Shown here: positions 29,465 to 36,726 of the stretch, piece by piece
Numbering within the stretch: position 1 is the first letter of the stretch
How the letters are laid out: the number at the start of each line of letters is the position of its first letter
Source: Christiangramia portivictoriae DSM 23547
Lineage (GTDB): Bacteria > Bacteroidota > Bacteroidia > Flavobacteriales > Flavobacteriaceae
Direction: 5' to 3'
Assembly: GCF_000423045.1 (NCBI RefSeq)
Contig: NZ_KE383971.1
Span: 196,092-260,091, forward strand
DNA length: 64,000 nucleotides
The notes under the pieces: model-generated
The model's input: the letters and a program-made list of their open reading frames with translations, nothing else
Told to the model about the DNA's origin: nothing
Databases searched by the model: none
Position numbers and translations under genes: made by a program

Positions 29465-30229
29465 TTAAAGCTTGATAGGACTAATAAATTCTGAGATCTT
29501 CGATGTCCCTTCCTTTTCAAGATGTTTAATAAAAGCACTACCAATGATCGCACCTTTAGCAAATTGTGTGGCCGCTTTGAAAGTCTCCTGATCTTTAATC
29601 CCGAAACCTACAATCTGAGGATTCTTTAAATCCATTTCATGAATTCTGCGAAAGTAATTACTGGTTGCTTCCCCAAAACCTGAAGTAGATCCGGTAACAC
29701 TGGCGCTGCTTACCATATATATAAATCCATTAGACACAGAATCGATAAACCTGATTCTTTCTTCTGAAGTTTGAGGAGTGATAAGGAATATATTGATCAA
29801 TCCATATTTTTCAAAAAGCTGCTTGTATTGTTCATGGTAGACATCCACCGGTAGATCTGGGATAATAAGTCCGTCAATGCCAGTTTCAGCACATTTCCTG
29901 CAAAATTCCTCTACTCCATATTGCAGCATTGGATTAAAATACCCCATGATGATCAAAGGTATCCCAACTTTTGATCTAATATCCTTTAGCTGCTCGAAAA
30001 GTTTGTGCGTGGTCATTCCATTGCGCAGGGCTTTAGTCGAACTTTCCTGAATTGTAGGGCCGTCTGCCAGTGGATCGCTAAATGGAAGTCCAATCTCGAT
30101 AAAGTCGACACCGCTTTTTTCCAGGTCTAAAATGATCTGTTCAGTATCATCAAGTGATGGAAAACCTGCACTAAAATATATGGAAAGAAGTTTTTTGTTT
30201 TCTTTTAATTTCTCCTGAATTCTATTCAT
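29465..30229 (-). CDS. trpA: Tryptophan synthase alpha chain
   Basis: Cleaves indole-3-glycerol phosphate and passes indole to TrpB. The 254-residue TIM barrel carries the catalytic Glu in VDFIEIGLPFSDPLADGPTI (about residues 40-60) and the catalytic Asp in that same segment. Further motifs are PLIIMGYFNPMLQYGV, DGLIIPDLPVD and the phosphate-binding YMVSSASVTGSTSGF and GFGIKD. It is the last gene of the operon, 3 bp after trpB. Confidence 0.96.
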   Translation of the reverse strand: MNRIQEKLKENKKLLSIYFSAGFPSLDDTEQIILDLEKSGVDFIEIGLPFSDPLADGPTIQESSTKALRNGMTTHKLFEQLKDIRSKVGIPLIIMGYFNPMLQYGVEEFCRKCAETGIDGLIIPDLPVDVYHEQYKQLFEKYGLINIFLITPQTSEERIRFIDSVSNGFIYMVSSASVTGSTSGFGEATSNYFRRIHEMDLKNPQIVGFGIKDQETFKAATQFAKGAIIGSAFIKHLEKEGTSKISEFISPIKL

Positions 30230-30232
30230 TTT

Positions 30233-31414
30233 CTATAAATTGAAATAGTCAATATACGTATTCAAATCCTTGTCACCTCTACCTGATAAATTCACCACAA
30301 CAATATTGTCCTTTTCAAATTTCCGGTTTTCAAAAACTGCCAGGGCATGCGAGGTTTCTATCGCAGGGATTATTCCCTCCAGTTTGGCCAGTTCCAAACC
30401 GGCTTTCATGGCTGCTTCGTCTGTAATACTAATAAATTCGCCTCGTTTGCTGGTAAAAAGATTCGCATGCATAGGTCCAACTCCCGGGTAGTCCAGGCCA
30501 GCTGAAATACTATAAGGCTCGGTAATCTGCCCGTCACCAGTTTGCATTAAAAGCGTTTTGCTTCCATGAATAATTCCCGGCTTTCCTAATGCAGAAGTGG
30601 CAGCACTTTCCCCGGTATCAATACCTTTACCAGCTGCTTCCACGGCAATAATTCCAACGTCTGGATTGTCGAGATAATGGTAATAGGCGCCGGCAGCGTT
30701 GCTACCACCACCCACACAGGCGATCACATAATCTGGATCTTCTGTATTTTCCTTTTCCATTAACTGGTACTTGATCTCTTCAGAAATAACACTCTGGAAC
30801 CTGGCTACCATGTCTGGATAAGGATGAGGTCCAACCACAGAACCTATGATATAATGAGTGTCTACGGGATTATTGATCCAGTCGCGAATAGCTTCGTTGG
30901 TAGCATCCTTCAAAGTACGGCTTCCAGATTTTGCCGGGATTACCTGGGCTCCCAGCATTTTCATCCTGGCTACATTGGGAGATTGTCTTTCAATATCCAC
31001 CTCGCCCATATAGACGATGCATTCCATTCCCATTAAAGCACAAACCGTTGCGGTGGCCACACCATGTTGACCAGCTCCAGTTTCAGCAATGATTCTTTTT
31101 TTTCCAAGCCTTTGCGCCATTAGGATCTGCCCAACTGTGTTATTTACTTTATGAGCACCCGTATGGCAAAGATCTTCACGTTTAAGATATACTTTGGTGC
31201 CGTAATGCTCGCTAAACCGCTTTGCATAATATAATGGCGTAGGTCTCCCTACATATTCTCTTAACAGATCATGAAATTTCTCCTGGAAGGATTGCTCCTG
31301 CATGATCTCAATATACCTGGAACGCAGTTCTTCTACGTTGGGGTACAGCATTTCAGGAATATAAGCTCCGCCAAAATCCCCGTAATATCCTTTTTCATCT
31401 ACCTGATAGCTCAT
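30233..31414 (-). CDS. trpB: Tryptophan synthase beta chain
   Basis: PLP enzyme that condenses indole and serine to tryptophan. The 393-residue protein has the Schiff-base lysine in [15 protein letters not shown] (about residue 87). The phosphate loop is [13 protein letters not shown], and [20 protein letters not shown] and [11 protein letters not shown] are present. This is the standard TrpB1 form that pairs with TrpA. It starts 1 bp after trpF stops, so translation is coupled. Confidence 0.97.
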
Positions 31415-31415
31415 T

Positions 31416-32117
31416 TTATGAATTTATCTTTTGTTTGAATTCTTTTAATTCCTTCAATTTTTTTAATCCGGGTTTTAATTCGAATTTACTATTTACATCT
31501 ATGGCATAAAGAAGATCTGGTTTGCCTTCTCTGTAGAAATGATTTTTCAATTCGGCTATGGCTTCCCCATGCTCAGGGCCAATACCACCACTAAGGAAAA
31601 AGGGCGTGTTGGAGGGATACTCTTTTAAAATCTGCCAGTCAAATTCTTTACCGTTTCCACCTCGTAATACTCCTTTAGTATCAAATAGAAAATAATCTGC
31701 GATACCTTCGAATGCCTGAATTCTCTGAAAATCGAAGTGATCACCAACACTAAAAACCTTGATAAGCTCAGGGGTACTCCCTTGTTGCTGAAAGCTATTC
31801 TTCAGTTTTTGACAGAATTCTGCCGACTCCTCTCCGTGTAACTGAATAGCATCCAGTTGATGCTTGCTGGCAGTCTCCAAGATGATGGAAATTGTCTCAT
31901 TTACAAAAACTCCTGTTTTTTTGATATCAGAAGGAAGTTCAGGAAGTTTTCCGTCGAAATAGCGGGGAGACTTTTCGTAAAATATAAAACCCATGTAAGT
32001 AGGCTTTAGATCTGCTACCTGCAACATATTTCCTGGTTGCTGCATCCCACAAACCTTAAGACTCAATCCAGAACTTTGTCCTGAAGCCGGCGTAGTTAAG
32101 TTTTGTTCCTGCATCAT
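31416..32117 (-). CDS. trpF: Phosphoribosylanthranilate isomerase
   Basis: Isomerises PRA to CdRP in tryptophan synthesis. The 233-residue protein has the catalytic Cys in [11 protein letters not shown] (about residue 23). [27 protein letters not shown]-like [39 protein letters not shown] and the phosphate-binding [14 protein letters not shown] are recognisable. The first ~18 residues ([18 protein letters not shown]) are an N-terminal extension without homology that I know. It lies 6 bp after trpC. Confidence 0.93.
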
Positions 32118-32123
32118 TTCTAT

Positions 32124-32915
32124 TTATGACTTGCTATTAATTCCTTTTATAAAATCCCTGGCTGCTTTCCCTGGATCTTCTGTACGCATGAAGTTCTCTC
32201 CAACCAGAAAGCCTTTATACCCATAGTCCTGAAGTTCTGCGATCACTTGCGGATCGCTGATACCACTTTCTGAAACCTTGACGAATTCATCTGGAATATG
32301 TTTTGAAAGAGTTTTGGAGTTTTCAATACTCACTTCGAAAGTTTTAAGGTTTCTGTTATTGACCCCAATCATATCTACATTTGCCTCGATCGAATTTTCA
32401 AGTTCCTTCAGGTCGTGAACTTCAAGTAGAACATCCATGCCTAAATTTCTTGCGAAAGTTGCCAGACGTTTTAACTCTTCCGTGGGTAATACGGCCGCTA
32501 TTAGCAGGACTACATCGGCACCAAATGCTTTGGCTTCCAGGATCTGGTAATCATCTACGATAAAATCTTTACGCAAAACAGGCATTTCCACAACCGCCCT
32601 GGCATATAAAAGATCTTCAAGGGAACCCCCAAAGTATTTACCGTCAGTAAGGACAGACATGCCGCAAACTCCGGCGTCCTGATAGCCGCTGGCCACATCC
32701 TGAACGTTGAGGTCGTGGTTAATGATAGATTTGGAAGGTGACCTTCGTTTGTGTTCAGCGATTATTCCACTGCTGGAAGATCTAAGTTTATCTGCCAGTG
32801 AAACCGGGCTTCTTTGAAATAAGATGGAGTTTTCAAGCTGTTCTACGGGGAAAATGGATTTTTTAAGTTCCACTTCCCGGCGTTTGTCTGCGACAATTTT
32901 ATCCAGAATATTCAT
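32124..32915 (-). CDS. trpC: Indole-3-glycerol phosphate synthase
   Basis: Forms the indole ring from CdRP. From the ATG at 32915 it is 263 residues (MNILDKIVADKRREVELKKS). The catalytic lysine region is SSSGIIAEHKRRSPSKSII, and PVLRKDFIVDDYQILEAKAF, LLEVHDLKELENS, MIGVNNRNLKTF and SESGISDP follow the family closely. The ATG at 32960 lies inside trpD and would add 15 unmatched residues. It follows trpD by 11 bp and is separate from trpF, unlike the fused enterobacterial gene. Confidence 0.96.
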   Translation of the reverse strand: MNILDKIVADKRREVELKKSIFPVEQLENSILFQRSPVSLADKLRSSSSGIIAEHKRRSPSKSIINHDLNVQDVASGYQDAGVCGMSVLTDGKYFGGSLEDLLYARAVVEMPVLRKDFIVDDYQILEAKAFGADVVLLIAAVLPTEELKRLATFARNLGMDVLLEVHDLKELENSIEANVDMIGVNNRNLKTFEVSIENSKTLSKHIPDEFVKVSESGISDPQVIAELQDYGYKGFLVGENFMRTEDPGKAARDFIKGINSKS

Positions 32916-32926
32916 ATTCTCAGTAT

Positions 32927-33919
32927 TTAAGTACTTAAGTCCTGTAATTTTTTGAAACATCTGAAGGCATTTCCAGATGCGATCGATTCCTTTGCACGGG
33001 CAAAACCATCCTCAGCACTAAGATTTTCTACAGTAGCGATGGCCATCCCTGCATTGGCGCATACGACATTTTCCTGCGCTGCCGTACCGTTTCCTTTCAA
33101 TATGCCCGTTAAGATTTCTGCGGAAGATTCAATCGAACCACCTCCGGCAATCTGTGATGGCTGTAATTCTGATACTCCAAAATCCTGCGGTCTCAACATG
33201 CTTTCAGAATCATTTCGAATACTTTTGGTCTCACAGGTTAATGAAATTTCGTCGTAACCATCAAGAGCATGGAGTATTGTGTAATTCTTGTTTGTATTTT
33301 GATAAAGATACGCATACATACGTGCCAGCTCCAAACTGAAAACTCCTACAAGTTGATTCTTAGGAAAAGCGGGATTTACCATTGGTCCAAGCATATTAAA
33401 GAATGTCTTTACGGCCAGGCTTTTTCTTACCGGCGCTACATTCTTCATAGCGGGATGGAATAGGGGAGCGTGTAAAATGCAAATATTGGCTTCTTCCAGC
33501 GACTTTTGAAGAAAGCCTTCGTCATTGCTAAATTTTATACCGAGATGTTCCATCACATTGGAACTTCCGCTCACCGATGAGACACCATAGTTTCCATGCT
33601 TGGACACCTTGACTCCTGCACCTGCAGTCACAAGAGAGGCGGTTGTGGAAATATTAAAAGTGTCTTTTCCATCACCACCGGTTCCGCAAAGATCCACGGT
33701 GTTGTAATCCTTGAGATCTACCTTTACACACAGTTCGAGCAATGCATCTCTGAAACCTTCCAACTCCTGGATAGTAATGCTTCTCATCATGTAGACGGTG
33801 AGAAATGCCGCGATCTGTGATTCTGAATATTTACCTTCAGAAATATTGAAAATGGCCTGTTTTGCTTCGCTGGTTGTAATTGTCTCGTGACTAATCAGCC
33901 TGTTTAAAAGATCTTTCAT
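32927..33919 (-). CDS. trpD: Anthranilate phosphoribosyltransferase
   Basis: Adds phosphoribose to anthranilate. The 330-residue protein has the PRPP-binding VDLCGTGGDGKDTFNISTT (about residues 77-95) and the anthranilate-binding KHGNYGVSSVSGSSNVMEHL. PVRKSLAVKTFFNMLGPMVN and LDGYDEISL are also conserved. It overlaps trpG by 4 bp (ATGA), so the amidotransferase and this enzyme are coupled but not fused. Confidence 0.96.
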   Translation of the reverse strand: MKDLLNRLISHETITTSEAKQAIFNISEGKYSESQIAAFLTVYMMRSITIQELEGFRDALLELCVKVDLKDYNTVDLCGTGGDGKDTFNISTTASLVTAGAGVKVSKHGNYGVSSVSGSSNVMEHLGIKFSNDEGFLQKSLEEANICILHAPLFHPAMKNVAPVRKSLAVKTFFNMLGPMVNPAFPKNQLVGVFSLELARMYAYLYQNTNKNYTILHALDGYDEISLTCETKSIRNDSESMLRPQDFGVSELQPSQIAGGGSIESSAEILTGILKGNGTAAQENVVCANAGMAIATVENLSAEDGFARAKESIASGNAFRCFKKLQDLST

Positions 33920-34542
33920 GAAGTTGTATGCTCGTTTTTCTTATTCTGATGTGTTACCGATTCAGATTCGTGTTCAACCCAGTTTTTGATCATTTTTTTG
34001 CCATCTGGCGTCAAAACCGATTCCGGGTGAAACTGAACACCTCGAACATCAAATTCCCGATGTCTCAACGACATTACCTCACCTTTTATGTCATAACTGG
34101 TAGCCTGCAACTGGGGAGGAAGATCTCTGGCAACAACCCAACTGTGGTATCGCCCAACTTCCAGTTCCCTTTCTAGACCATTATATAGATATTCATCTTC
34201 TACAAATACTTCAATACTTGTGGCAACACCATGATAAACTTCTTCAAGATTTAGTAATGTACCACCATAAACTTCCCCAATTGCCTGCATCCCCAAACAT
34301 ACCCCGAGAATACTTTTGGTTGCTCCATATTCTGCAATGATCTGTTTTAAAAGGCCTGCCTCCTCCGGGATTCCAGGACCTGGAGATAGTAAAATCTTAT
34401 CATAATCTTCCACCTCTTCAAGGTCAAGCTGGTCATTTCTCTTCACCGTCACTTCACAATCCAGTTCTTCAAGATAATGTACAAGATTGTAGACGAAAGA
34501 ATCGTAATTGTCTATTACTAGTATCTTTTTCATCTTTTCCAT
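33916..34542 (-). CDS. trpG: Anthranilate synthase component II (glutamine amidotransferase)
   Basis: Class I glutamine amidotransferase that feeds ammonia to TrpE. In the 208-residue protein the oxyanion region is ILLSPGPGIPEEAG and the nucleophilic Cys is in ILGVCLGMQAIGEVYGG (about residue 80). The His-Glu pair is in GVQFHPESVLTPDG. GRYHSWVV is the family motif before it. The first ATG (34542) is 1 bp from the trpE stop; another in-frame ATG follows at 34533. The same fold serves PabA, but operon position fixes it as TrpG. Confidence 0.95.
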   Translation of the reverse strand: MEKMKKILVIDNYDSFVYNLVHYLEELDCEVTVKRNDQLDLEEVEDYDKILLSPGPGIPEEAGLLKQIIAEYGATKSILGVCLGMQAIGEVYGGTLLNLEEVYHGVATSIEVFVEDEYLYNGLERELEVGRYHSWVVARDLPPQLQATSYDIKGEVMSLRHREFDVRGVQFHPESVLTPDGKKMIKNWVEHESESVTHQNKKNEHTTS

Positions 34543-34543
34543 A

Positions 34544-35938
34544 CTATATTTCTTCAGCTATTTCCAGAGCTTTGGTAAGGGCTCCCAGTTTATTGTATAC
34601 TTCCTGCAATTCATTTTCAGGTTTTGATTCTGAAACAACTCCGGCACCTGCCTGGTAATGTAGTTCGTGATCTTTACTTACGAAAGATCTAATGATGATC
34701 GCATGATTGAAATTCCCTTCAAAATCCATAAAACCAATCGCACCACCGTAAGCCGACCGATTCACATTTTCAAATTTTTCAATAAGTCGCAGTGCCATGG
34801 GTTTCGGCGCACCACTTAAAGTTCCGGCAGGGAAGGTGTCTGCAACGATCTGCGGAGTTGGTACATTGGCGGCTATCTTTCCGGTAACCTTGCTCACCAG
34901 GTGAATCACATGAGAAAAGAATTGTATTTCGCGGTAATTCTCAACTACTACATCACTTCCGTTACGGCTTAGATCATTGCGTGCCAGGTCAACCAGCATC
35001 ACGTGTTCTGAATTTTCCTTACGATCTGCAGCGAGTTCTTTGGCCAGTTCTGCGTCCTTTTCATCATTCCCGGTACGTTTAAAAGTTCCGGCAATAGGAT
35101 GAATTTCAGCCCGACCTTCATTTACCACCAATTGCGCTTCAGGTGAACTACCGAATATTTTGAAATTTCCGTAGTCAAAATAAAAGAGATAGGGGGAAGG
35201 GTTTACATTCCTCAATGCCCGATATACATTGAATTCATCACCCTTGAATTTTTGAGAAAAGCGCCTGGACAGTACCAGCTGGAATACATCACCTCGCTGG
35301 CAATGCTCCTTCGCAGCTTCCACCACGTTGCGATATTCATCGTCGTTCAGGTTCGAGGTAGGCTCATTGGTTCTGGAAAAATTATAGGATGCGAAATTTT
35401 TAACCTTCAGCAGTTGTTCTATCTCCTCCAGTCTGGATTCAGATTCATAACTGTGATCAAAGATATAAGCTTCGTTTTTAAAATGATTGATCGCGATGAT
35501 GTTTTGATATACCGCATAGTAAACATCTGGAATTTGTAAATCCTTTTCTTTCCGGCTTATCTCCACATTCTCAAAATATCGCACGGCATCATATCCTATA
35601 TAGCCGAAAATCCCATTATTGATGAATTTATAATCTGAAGTATCTGCCTTAAATCTTTTGGAGAATTGCTGGATCGCAGCAGGAACTGAAACCTTTTGGT
35701 CAATCTTCGTTGTTTGAACGGTTCCATCAGGCAGACTTTCAGTAATCATATCGTTTTCGACCTTAAAGGAAGCGATTGGATTACAGCAGATGTAGGAAAA
35801 GCTATTGTCACTGGCGTGGTAATCACTACTTTCTAGCAAAAGACTATTTGGATAGCGGTCCCGAAGCTTCAAATAGATACTTACCGGGGTGATCGTATCT
35901 GCAAGGATCTTTTTTGAAGTTGTATTTAATTCGAACAT
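34544..35938 (-). CDS. trpE: Anthranilate synthase component I
   Basis: Makes anthranilate from chorismate with ammonia from TrpG, the committed step. In the 464-residue protein the N-terminal feedback site LLLESSDYHASDNSFSYI (about 34-51) contains the LLES motif that binds tryptophan. The catalytic domain has GDVFQLVLSRRFS, SPYLFYFDYGNFKIFGSSPE, ELAADRKENSEHVMLVDLAR NDL in pieces, FPAGTLSGAPKPMA and YGGAIGFMDFEGN. It is preceded by a leader peptide and a terminator that control entry into the operon. Confidence 0.96.
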   Translation of the reverse strand: MFELNTTSKKILADTITPVSIYLKLRDRYPNSLLLESSDYHASDNSFSYICCNPIASFKVENDMITESLPDGTVQTTKIDQKVSVPAAIQQFSKRFKADTSDYKFINNGIFGYIGYDAVRYFENVEISRKEKDLQIPDVYYAVYQNIIAINHFKNEAYIFDHSYESESRLEEIEQLLKVKNFASYNFSRTNEPTSNLNDDEYRNVVEAAKEHCQRGDVFQLVLSRRFSQKFKGDEFNVYRALRNVNPSPYLFYFDYGNFKIFGSSPEAQLVVNEGRAEIHPIAGTFKRTGNDEKDAELAKELAADRKENSEHVMLVDLARNDLSRNGSDVVVENYREIQFFSHVIHLVSKVTGKIAANVPTPQIVADTFPAGTLSGAPKPMALRLIEKFENVNRSAYGGAIGFMDFEGNFNHAIIIRSFVSKDHELHYQAGAGVVSESKPENELQEVYNKLGALTKALEIAEEI

Positions 35939-35960
35939 GGAATCTTAAATTTTTTTAAAT

Positions 35961-35989
35961 AAAAAAAGGCTTGTCGTGAGACAAGCCTT
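35961..35989 (-). terminator. trp operon attenuator (leader terminator)
   Basis: On the minus strand AAGGCTTGTC (35989-35980), loop TCAC, GACAAGCCTT (35975-35966) form a perfect 10-bp stem followed by seven T, 22 bp before the trpE ATG. The sequence CTCACGA (35980-35974), in the loop and stem, is exactly complementary to TCGTGAG (36025-36019) at the end of the leader peptide gene. That pairing would open the terminator, giving the two mutually exclusive structures of ribosome-mediated attenuation. Confidence 0.9.
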
Positions 35990-36019
35990 ATATATCTATA
36001 TATGAAATGGCGTATCAGC

Positions 36020-36067
36020 TCACGATCTTTTGCGTAAGTTACTCCACCACCAGTTATGTGTATTCAT
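36020..36067 (-). CDS. trpL: trp operon leader peptide with three tandem Trp codons
   Basis: The short frame encodes MNTHNWWWSNLRKRS. It has three consecutive TGG codons at 36052-36044 and its TGA stop at 36022-36020. It lies between a consensus promoter and the leader terminator upstream of trpE. An in-frame ATG nine bases earlier (36076) would give three more residues (MLI), but lies within a few bases of the expected transcription start. A ribosome stalled on the Trp codons leaves TCGTGAG free to form the antiterminator; one that reaches the stop codon covers it. This is the sensing element of the operon. Confidence 0.9.
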   Translation of the reverse strand: MNTHNWWWSNLRKRS

Positions 36068-36081
36068 AATTAACATGGCTT

Positions 36082-36112
36082 CAAAGATAGAAATCAATTA
36101 TTCATTATCAAA
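36082..36112 (-). promoter_or_regulatory. trp operon promoter
   Basis: Minus strand: TTTG (36109-36112), exactly 19 bp, TATCTTTG (36082-36089). This is a perfect match to the Bacteroidota consensus TTTG-N19-TAnnTTTG. Transcription should start about 6-8 bases downstream, just before the leader peptide gene. Confidence 0.85.
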
Positions 36113-36156
36113 CTAAATTTTAAAAAGAATCTCAAAGATTTACTTTGGGAAACTTA

Positions 36157-36726
36157 TTAGAATTGCAATTTAATGTCAAGGTCAAAATTGTCATAAATAG
36201 TTTTATCTCCAAGATTGTCAAAGAAACTACCAGACCCGTAACGTACATCGTACTTGGTTCTATCTATAGTTACCTGAGTGGTAGCTGTATCACCGTTCAT
36301 GTTCAGGTCAAATGTTAAAGGATGTGTTTTCTCTTTAATGGTAAGATCTCCTACAATTCCATACTTACCGTTACCTTTAGAAGCCGCGCTGGTAATCACG
36401 AGTTTTGCTTTAGGATGATCATTTACTCCGAAAAAATCATCAGACTTCAAATGTCCTTCCAGTTTCGCTTTGCCATCTCCTGAAAGATCGGTTACGGTAA
36501 TACTGCTCATGTCCATGACAAATTCACCACCTGTGATCTTATCGTCTTCCATCATAAGGTAGCCACTTTCCAGTTGAATAGTTCCTTCATGAGAACCGGT
36601 CACTTTTTCTCCGGTCCAGGTAATGCTGCTTTCAGAAGTTTTTACCTCTTTTTTCGAATTTGTAAATGCTACGGTAGTTACTACTACGAGCATAATTACT
36701 GCGGAATTGATTAATTTACTTTTCAT
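36157..36726 (-). CDS. YceI family periplasmic protein
   Basis: The 189-residue protein has a signal peptide (MKSKLINSAVIMLVVVTTVAF) and a YceI lipocalin-like barrel over the rest. SSITWTGEKVTGSHEGTIQL, KLEGHLKSDDFFGVNDHPKA and VGDLTIKEKTHPLTFDLNMN are the family landmarks. YceI proteins bind isoprenoid-type hydrophobic ligands in the periplasm. It is 16 bp after the nitroreductase and is last in a marR-nitroreductase-yceI unit. Confidence 0.92.
   Translation of the reverse strand: MKSKLINSAVIMLVVVTTVAFTNSKKEVKTSESSITWTGEKVTGSHEGTIQLESGYLMMEDDKITGGEFVMDMSSITVTDLSGDGKAKLEGHLKSDDFFGVNDHPKAKLVITSAASKGNGKYGIVGDLTIKEKTHPLTFDLNMNGDTATTQVTIDRTKYDVRYGSGSFFDNLGDKTIYDNFDLDIKLQF

Follow-up and report, generated by a model that had tools for sequence, protein, structure and literature searches.

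A probable ribosome-mediated attenuator of the Bacteroid-trp family precedes the tryptophan operon of Christiangramia portivictoriae

The window analysed here, a stretch of 64,000 nucleotides in contig 2 of the 3.27-Mb genome of Christiangramia portivictoriae DSM 23547, carries on its minus strand the trp operon, with trpE, G, D, C, F, B and A following one another downstream of a short leader (Table 1). The nearest named relatives of this genome are Gramella/Christiangramia. The gap between a YceI-like gene and trpE is filled, on the same strand, by a promoter, a short open reading frame (ORF) with the codons TGG TGG TGG and an intrinsic terminator.

Table 1. Features of the trp leader region and its neighbouring genes, in window coordinates
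Feature	Position	Strand	Basis or remark
YceI-like gene	36157-36726	-	Upstream of the leader; 39.4 bits, below the model cut-off
TTTG box	36109..36112	-	Read from the letters
-7 box TATCTTTG	36082..36089	-	Bacteroidota TAnnTTTG type
Leader peptide ORF MLIMNTHNWWWSNLRKRS*	36020..36076	-	Conserved outer start ATG 36076
Three Trp codons (TGG TGG TGG)	36044..36052	-	Read from the letters
Strand 1 core CTTACG	36033..36038	-	Pairs with 36024-36019 (1:2 hairpin)
Strand 2 core TCGTGAG	36019..36025	-	Includes the leader stop codon
Strand 2, downstream part	36007..36018	-	Predicted folds; CGCCAT, GATA and GCC
Strand 3 core CTCACGA	35974..35980	-	Terminator loop with one flanking nt from the 5' arm and two from the 3' arm
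Intrinsic terminator hairpin (3:4), then T run	35966..35989	-	Scan, conservation, covariation
trpE	34544..35938	-	Opens the operon; top-scoring family anthranilate synthase component I at 426.7 bits, short of the 517.7-bit model cut-off
trpG, trpD, trpC, trpF, trpB, trpA	29465..34542	-	Family model matches; trpF below its models' cut-offs, the other five each above one

In the enterobacterial trp leader, a leader ribosome acts together with four strands, 1 to 4, whose pairings, 1:2 with 3:4 on the one hand and 2:3 on the other, are mutually exclusive. The unit in the window is predicted to share the leader ribosome, the four strands and the exclusive pairings, and is unlike the enterobacterial leader in that the core of its strand 3 sits on the apex of the terminator. 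The coordinates and minus-strand letters on which the original prediction was built were borne out on reading the sequence, including the three Trp codons and the 18 nt between the last of them and the start of the strand 2 arm. Likewise, that arm includes the leader's own stop codon and forms seven pairs with the strand 3 core, and the terminator has ten perfect pairs (35989-35980 with 35975-35966) around a TCAC loop and is followed by seven T, two of which lie within the stem. The hallmarks of a ribosome-mediated attenuator, an ORF with a run of Trp codons and an intrinsic terminator before the first gene, are present at the level of the sequence. The leader peptide is a different matter, since the 15 codons originally proposed were counted from an inner ATG at 36067, which is missing from some Christiangramia relatives (for example L008, L011 and L084), whereas the outer ATG at 36076 gives 18 codons. 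Of 85 distinct leaders, 84 have a start codon eight codons ahead of the Trp run (80 ATG, four GTG or TTG), and ATG, GTG or TTG occupies that place in 182 of the 207 leaders of a wider set; judged by conservation, the outer ATG is probably the leader start.

The leader very probably belongs to an already catalogued family, Bacteroid-trp (RF01692), a Bacteroidetes RNA that Weinberg et al. 2010 entered in their Table 1 as probably cis-regulatory (PMC2864571). At the gathering score, an Rfam scan of the window returned no match; at a permissive threshold, RF01692 matched the leader over the full length of the model (positions 1-131) with 48.8 bits and an E-value of 4.3e-5, 0.2 bits below the curated cut-off of 49 bits. 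When the whole genome was searched, the leader had an E-value of 1.1e-4 and the next place scored just 25.6 bits, which speaks against a second copy. Among 18 relatives, 14 scored above the cut-off, one of them L004, a member of the genus, with 59.3 bits; L038, L039, L104 and L106 fell below it, the last two also belonging to the genus. The consensus structure of the family is a 1:2 hairpin with UGG codons inside it, and the UGG run of the leader falls within this hairpin. The likeness thereby extends to the location before the trp genes of a Bacteroidota genome, the Trp-codon leader, the 1:2 hairpin, the phylum and the full-length model match. The model ends at GGCUUGUC, without the 3' arm of the terminator and without a 2:3 switch, unlike the unit described here. 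A catalogued family missed by 0.2 bits can look like a new finding, and what may be added to RF01692 is the terminator, the half of the switch in which strand 2 pairs with the terminator apex, and possibly a leaderless leader.

The RF01692 model itself seems too narrow. Specifically, a scan of 149 class-level genomes, run with filters under which weak matches drop out, found seven, five of them over the cut-off; 46 of the same genomes have a TrpE match at an E-value of 1e-70, and 21 of 27 order- and class-level trpE upstream regions were positive in a joint scan for leader and terminator. These numbers together suggest that the model under-reports, and a better one should annotate more trp operons. 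The Rfam scans also rule out the enterobacterial leader family, a T-box or another riboswitch: Trp_leader had no match in the window at the gathering score, nor was it among the 14 matches to E 10 in 35900-36200. It is exceedingly improbable that tryptophan is sensed otherwise, by a TRAP-like protein, a T-box or a ligand riboswitch, with the ORF being incidental. No point in favour of such a sensor was found; none of the Rfam families attains its gathering score in the window, only Bacteroid-trp among the 14 matches nears its cut-off, and conservation covers both the Trp codons and the distance separating them from strand 2.

This conservation was followed across 104 trpE loci, 80 from a named collection and 24 from a genus search that included the window, with some species present in both sets. 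An attenuator leader precedes trpE at 103 of them. The Trp run lies within up to 400 bases upstream of trpE at 95 loci and, together with its terminator, farther up at eight others (469-564 bases); the one remaining locus lies at a contig end, where trpE is preceded by just 32 bases. A further 140 upstream regions came from a family sample of one genome per genus and from order and class samples, drawn only from trpE matches within E-value limits, with part of the order and class matches fetched. A loose scan found a Trp-run ORF in 133 of these regions, 109 of which also have a perfect-stem terminator; it found no such ORF in L227, L242, L243, L244, L246, L247 and L250, six of which belong outside the family. 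In the joint scan for leader and terminator, 227 of 244 trpE-upstream regions were positive, yielding 207 distinct leaders. The conserved TGG runs anticipated by the original prediction are indeed found in relatives, with three Trp codons in 189 and two in 18 of the 207 leaders under a scan that demanded at least two.

Of the 171 leaders with CGTGA, 164 place strand 2 at 18 or 19 nt from the Trp codons. TCGTGA contains the stop codon in 71 of 85 leaders, a count made up of 69 found by script and two by eye, and the stop lies elsewhere in 14; twelve of the latter have one extra base between the Trp codons and the arm and a stop 6 nt later, and two stop earlier. A stop codon inside the arm is thus usual yet not essential, and since the position of the stop varies and the spacing is kept, it is the spacing of the arm to the Trp codons, by this comparison, and not the exact position of the stop that appears to be key.

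Between the attenuator terminator and trpE, eight of the 104 loci (L016, L018, L019, L035, L040, L059, L060 and L065, from Salegentibacter and the Muricauda/Flagellimonas group) contain an ORF of 94-98 residues at about -360 to -42 from trpE. The two of these eight ORFs that were scanned are GIY-YIG domain proteins (Pfam PF01541, E-values 1.2e-17 and 9e-15).

Could the terminator simply belong to the upstream YceI-like gene, with a Trp-rich ORF next to it by chance? The site does lie in the gap after that gene and on the same strand, and a generic terminator scan found three terminators where shuffled sequence gave 2.8, a result that taken alone says little even though the leader terminator has the longest stem. 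Against this reading, which we consider exceedingly improbable, stand the Bacteroidota promoter between the YceI-like gene and the terminator, the retention of the unit before trpE even where the small ORF intervenes, and a complementarity maintained with other letters. A chance origin of the unit is also rejected by the rarity of the terminator pattern with a TCAC loop, which occurs once in the window, in none of 100 shuffles and once in the whole genome. Covariation was assessed in a plain alignment of 109 rows, which share descent, against 200 shuffles. For the terminator stem, 82 cells with double changes were counted compared with 10.1 in the shuffles, none of which reached this number. 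Within the leaders, GGCTTGTC/GACAAGCC is invariant in 136 of 207, which could be expected if the 5' arm of the terminator serves two pairings.

The second pairing to be weighed is the hairpin of strands 1 and 2. The original prediction held that the enterobacterial scheme is simplified here, with no 1:2 hairpin needed and the masking of the arm by the ribosome alone being what matters. A ribosome at the stop codon would indeed suffice in folding to mask strand 2 (probability of 2:3, 0.00). Yet the minimum-energy fold of the leader holds a CUUACG:CGUGAG hairpin, whose base is formed by GUGGUG from the Trp codons with CGCCAU from the downstream part of strand 2, and this core is also found in the Rfam consensus structure. 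The fold of the whole leader has a z-score of -3.26. In 200 of the 207 leaders, 37 of the 42 divergent ones among them, half or more of the strand 2 core pairs with upstream sequence, and the mean z-score is -1.72; when only the stretch from the Trp codons to strand 2 was shuffled, 142.2 of 207 and 27.1 of 42 were expected, a high baseline that is nevertheless exceeded. Set against this, a leader folds better than at least 19 of its 20 strand 1 shuffles in only 86 of the 207.

Compensatory change in this hairpin is visible and uneven. Among the 158 leaders with the standard arm, CTTACG occurs with CGTGAG in 70, TTTACG with CGTGAA in four and ATTACG with CGTGAT in two, but CTTACG with CGTGAA in six and GAAACG with CGTGAA in another six, combinations that need a broken pair or a bulge, and strand 1 lacks the NNNACG form in 62. 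In the alignment, the outer pair is C-G in 38 rows and T-A in 43, an exchange that may represent few events. The 1:2 core has 54 double-change cells against 22.6 in shuffles, with none of 200 reaching this value, although two of four measures are ordinary (reached by 100 and 37 of 200 shuffles). Covariation for the base of the hairpin, in which the Trp codons pair with CGCCAT, was sought in the alignment and not found. On balance, the upstream pairing of strand 2 above its baseline, the predicted and consensus folds and the replacement of C-G by T-A make an attenuator that dispenses with the 1:2 hairpin improbable. The class of mechanism originally proposed, a ribosome-mediated trp attenuator, is supported. 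Its simplification is not supported, and the element is not new, as RF01692 shows; the 1:2 hairpin and a longer antiterminator were the features overlooked.

The alternative pairing, of strand 2 with the terminator apex, is nearly invariant as TCGTGA:TCACGA in Flavobacteriaceae, and TCACGA is present in 165 of 207 terminator apexes. Because the pairing hardly varies inside the family, evidence for covariation in 2:3 rests on divergent lineages. For the 42 leaders without a TCACGA apex, the duplex of the arm with its own apex has a mean of -10.97 kcal/mol, compared with -7.83 kcal/mol for the apexes of other leaders. The leader's own apex beats the average swap in 33 of the 42 and is not better in nine, some of which differ from the standard apex by one letter. 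In seven leaders (L204, L221, L230, L240, L241, L248 and L252), no swap of 65 is as good; examples of arm and apex are GGATTCAG:CTGAATCC in L221, GAGAAGC:GCTTCTC in L240 and L241, GAACAG:CTGTTC in L248 and CCGGAT:ATCCGG in L230. Across all 207 leaders, the share of shuffles of the strand 2 zone that pair as well has a median of 1 in 60, and in 75 leaders it is above that. The signal is weaker in the plain alignment, in which the 2:3 helix shows double changes in 12 cells where shuffles give 8.0 (reached by 10 of 200), six double-change pairs against 3.0 (3 of 200) and 85.1% paired positions against 83.3% (0 of 200). The covariation of the two 7-mers that the original prediction looked for is therefore seen in part: the complementarity appears to be mostly kept, with other letters, in the divergent lineages, while inside Flavobacteriaceae there is little change to follow. 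The parts of the unit, their conservation, their compensatory change and the mutually exclusive pairings can be read from the sequences.

The antiterminator is predicted to reach beyond the seven pairs of the arm. Before the 3' arm of the terminator is made, the predicted fold has UCGUGA:UCACGA followed by GAUA:UGUC and GCC:GGC around an AU-rich hairpin, so that GATA and GCC of the downstream part of strand 2 pair with the terminator 5' arm. This longer antiterminator would ease the limit that a 7-bp arm would free only two terminator pairs. Taken in isolation, it folds with a z-score of -1.94, and 11 of 200 shuffles do as well. In 144 of 207 leaders, half or more of the terminator 5' arm is paired upstream; with only the linker shuffled, the mean z-score is -1.36, with values below -1 in 121 of 207 and -0.7 in the window. 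These predictions provide moderate evidence for an extension along the terminator 5' arm.

The ribosome was represented in folding by a mask reaching from 12 nt upstream to 15 nt downstream of the first P-site codon base, an assumed footprint. For an RNA ending at 35970, the ribosome-free leader forms 1:2 at 0.99; stalling on any of the three Trp codons raises the probability of 2:3 to 0.82-0.90, and with the ribosome at the stop codon 2:3 falls to 0.00 and 3:4 stands at 0.59. The original proposal that a stalled ribosome frees the arm and a ribosome at the stop masks it is thereby reproduced at this RNA length. For an RNA ending at 35974, 2:3 also wins without a ribosome (0.79). In the full RNA, the masked folding no longer follows the proposal, as the terminator is favoured at 0.96-0.97 in every ribosome state, and with the ribosome at the first Trp codon 1:2 re-forms (0.91). 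Since the complete terminator wins in every state, antitermination must, according to these models, be kinetic, decided as RNA polymerase passes.

The unit is very probably a transcription attenuator that controls the trpEGDCFBA operon through the ribosome and is orthologous to Rfam Bacteroid-trp; the ribosome reading the three Trp codons most likely decides whether the trp genes are switched on. With ample charged tRNA-Trp, the ribosome would reach UGA and cover strand 2 (UCGUGAG), or it would depart and leave strand 2 held in the 1:2 hairpin; in either case, the terminator would form and transcription would stop before trpE. When tRNA-Trp is short, the ribosome would stall on UGGUGGUGG and cover strand 1, leaving strand 2 free. 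While the 3' arm has yet to be synthesized, strand 2 would pair with CUCACGA at the terminator apex and, according to the predicted fold, with much of the terminator 5' arm. Once 2:3 has formed, RNA polymerase would read on into trpE. We infer the ribosome stalling, the kinetics, the termination and the response to tryptophan from this arrangement, and read-through would be expected to rise as charged tRNA falls.

The promoter called consensus by the original prediction is present, but it is of the Bacteroidota TAnnTTTG type, judging from its letters, and not a sigma-70 consensus. Its layout is TTTG-N19-TATCTTTG, with a TTTG box that we take to be -33-like. It is overlapped by a sigma-70 match at 9 of 12 positions, a kind of site that occurs 15 times in 4 kb, compared with 10.5 expected. 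TAnnTTTG was found in 195 of 207 leaders when the 90 nt upstream of the Trp run were searched. In 61 of the 195, as in the window, a gap of 5 nt separates this motif from the codon eight positions ahead of the Trp run; a second, broad group has gaps of 16-20 nt. With one leader per genus, the motif is present in 103 of 105 and the 5-nt gap in 21 of 105.

In Flavobacterium psychrophilum, where the TAnnTTTG consensus is described, the box occupies -12 to -5 (PMC9723704), which places the predicted transcription start of the window at the AUG or one base before it. It is accordingly possible, though we hold the reading tentatively and rate it below even, that both this species and roughly a fifth of the Flavobacteriaceae genera sampled translate the leader peptide from a leaderless transcript. 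The ribosome would then load right at the 5' terminus of the attenuator RNA, with no ribosome-binding site involved. This reading extrapolates from start mapping in that one species, in which 5.5% of mRNAs are counted as leaderless (PMC9723704), a figure that speaks against it, as does the longer gap between TAnnTTTG and the start in many genera. A leaderless leader ORF, if real, would offer a neat system in which to test how initiation proceeds without Shine-Dalgarno sequences.

Similar elements have been described in the family. Rochat et al. 2019 place Bacteroid-trp upstream of the trp operon of F. psychrophilum and compare it with the E. coli leader, so that location and attenuator-like character agree with the window; that element is from another genus and, in the passage concerned, is discussed rather than tested (PMC6414381). 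A 2021 transcriptome paper describes strong clues for leader-peptide attenuation before amino-acid operons of F. psychrophilum, and it also reports a hisG 5' element that has no Rfam match (PMC9723704). Such attenuation is what the reported amino-acid operons share with the trp leader, from which the hisG element differs in its histidine codons and other letters.

Tandem Trp-run leaders with terminators precede trpE in L229 and L236 (two of 140 regions by scan) and, by eye, also in L234 and L241. In the C. portivictoriae genome, a weak pattern search around one pheA-family and one acetolactate-synthase match found no runs of phenylalanine or branched-chain codons. Upstream of hisG in the same genome (L259, minus strand), there is a putative histidine attenuator of the same design, MTNFNVHHHHLLLHAQAR*, with its His run at reverse-complement offset 1360 and the terminator AACCCG..CGGGTT. 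The apex of this terminator holds GTTTGAG, with which CTCAAGC forms a duplex of -9.5 kcal/mol.
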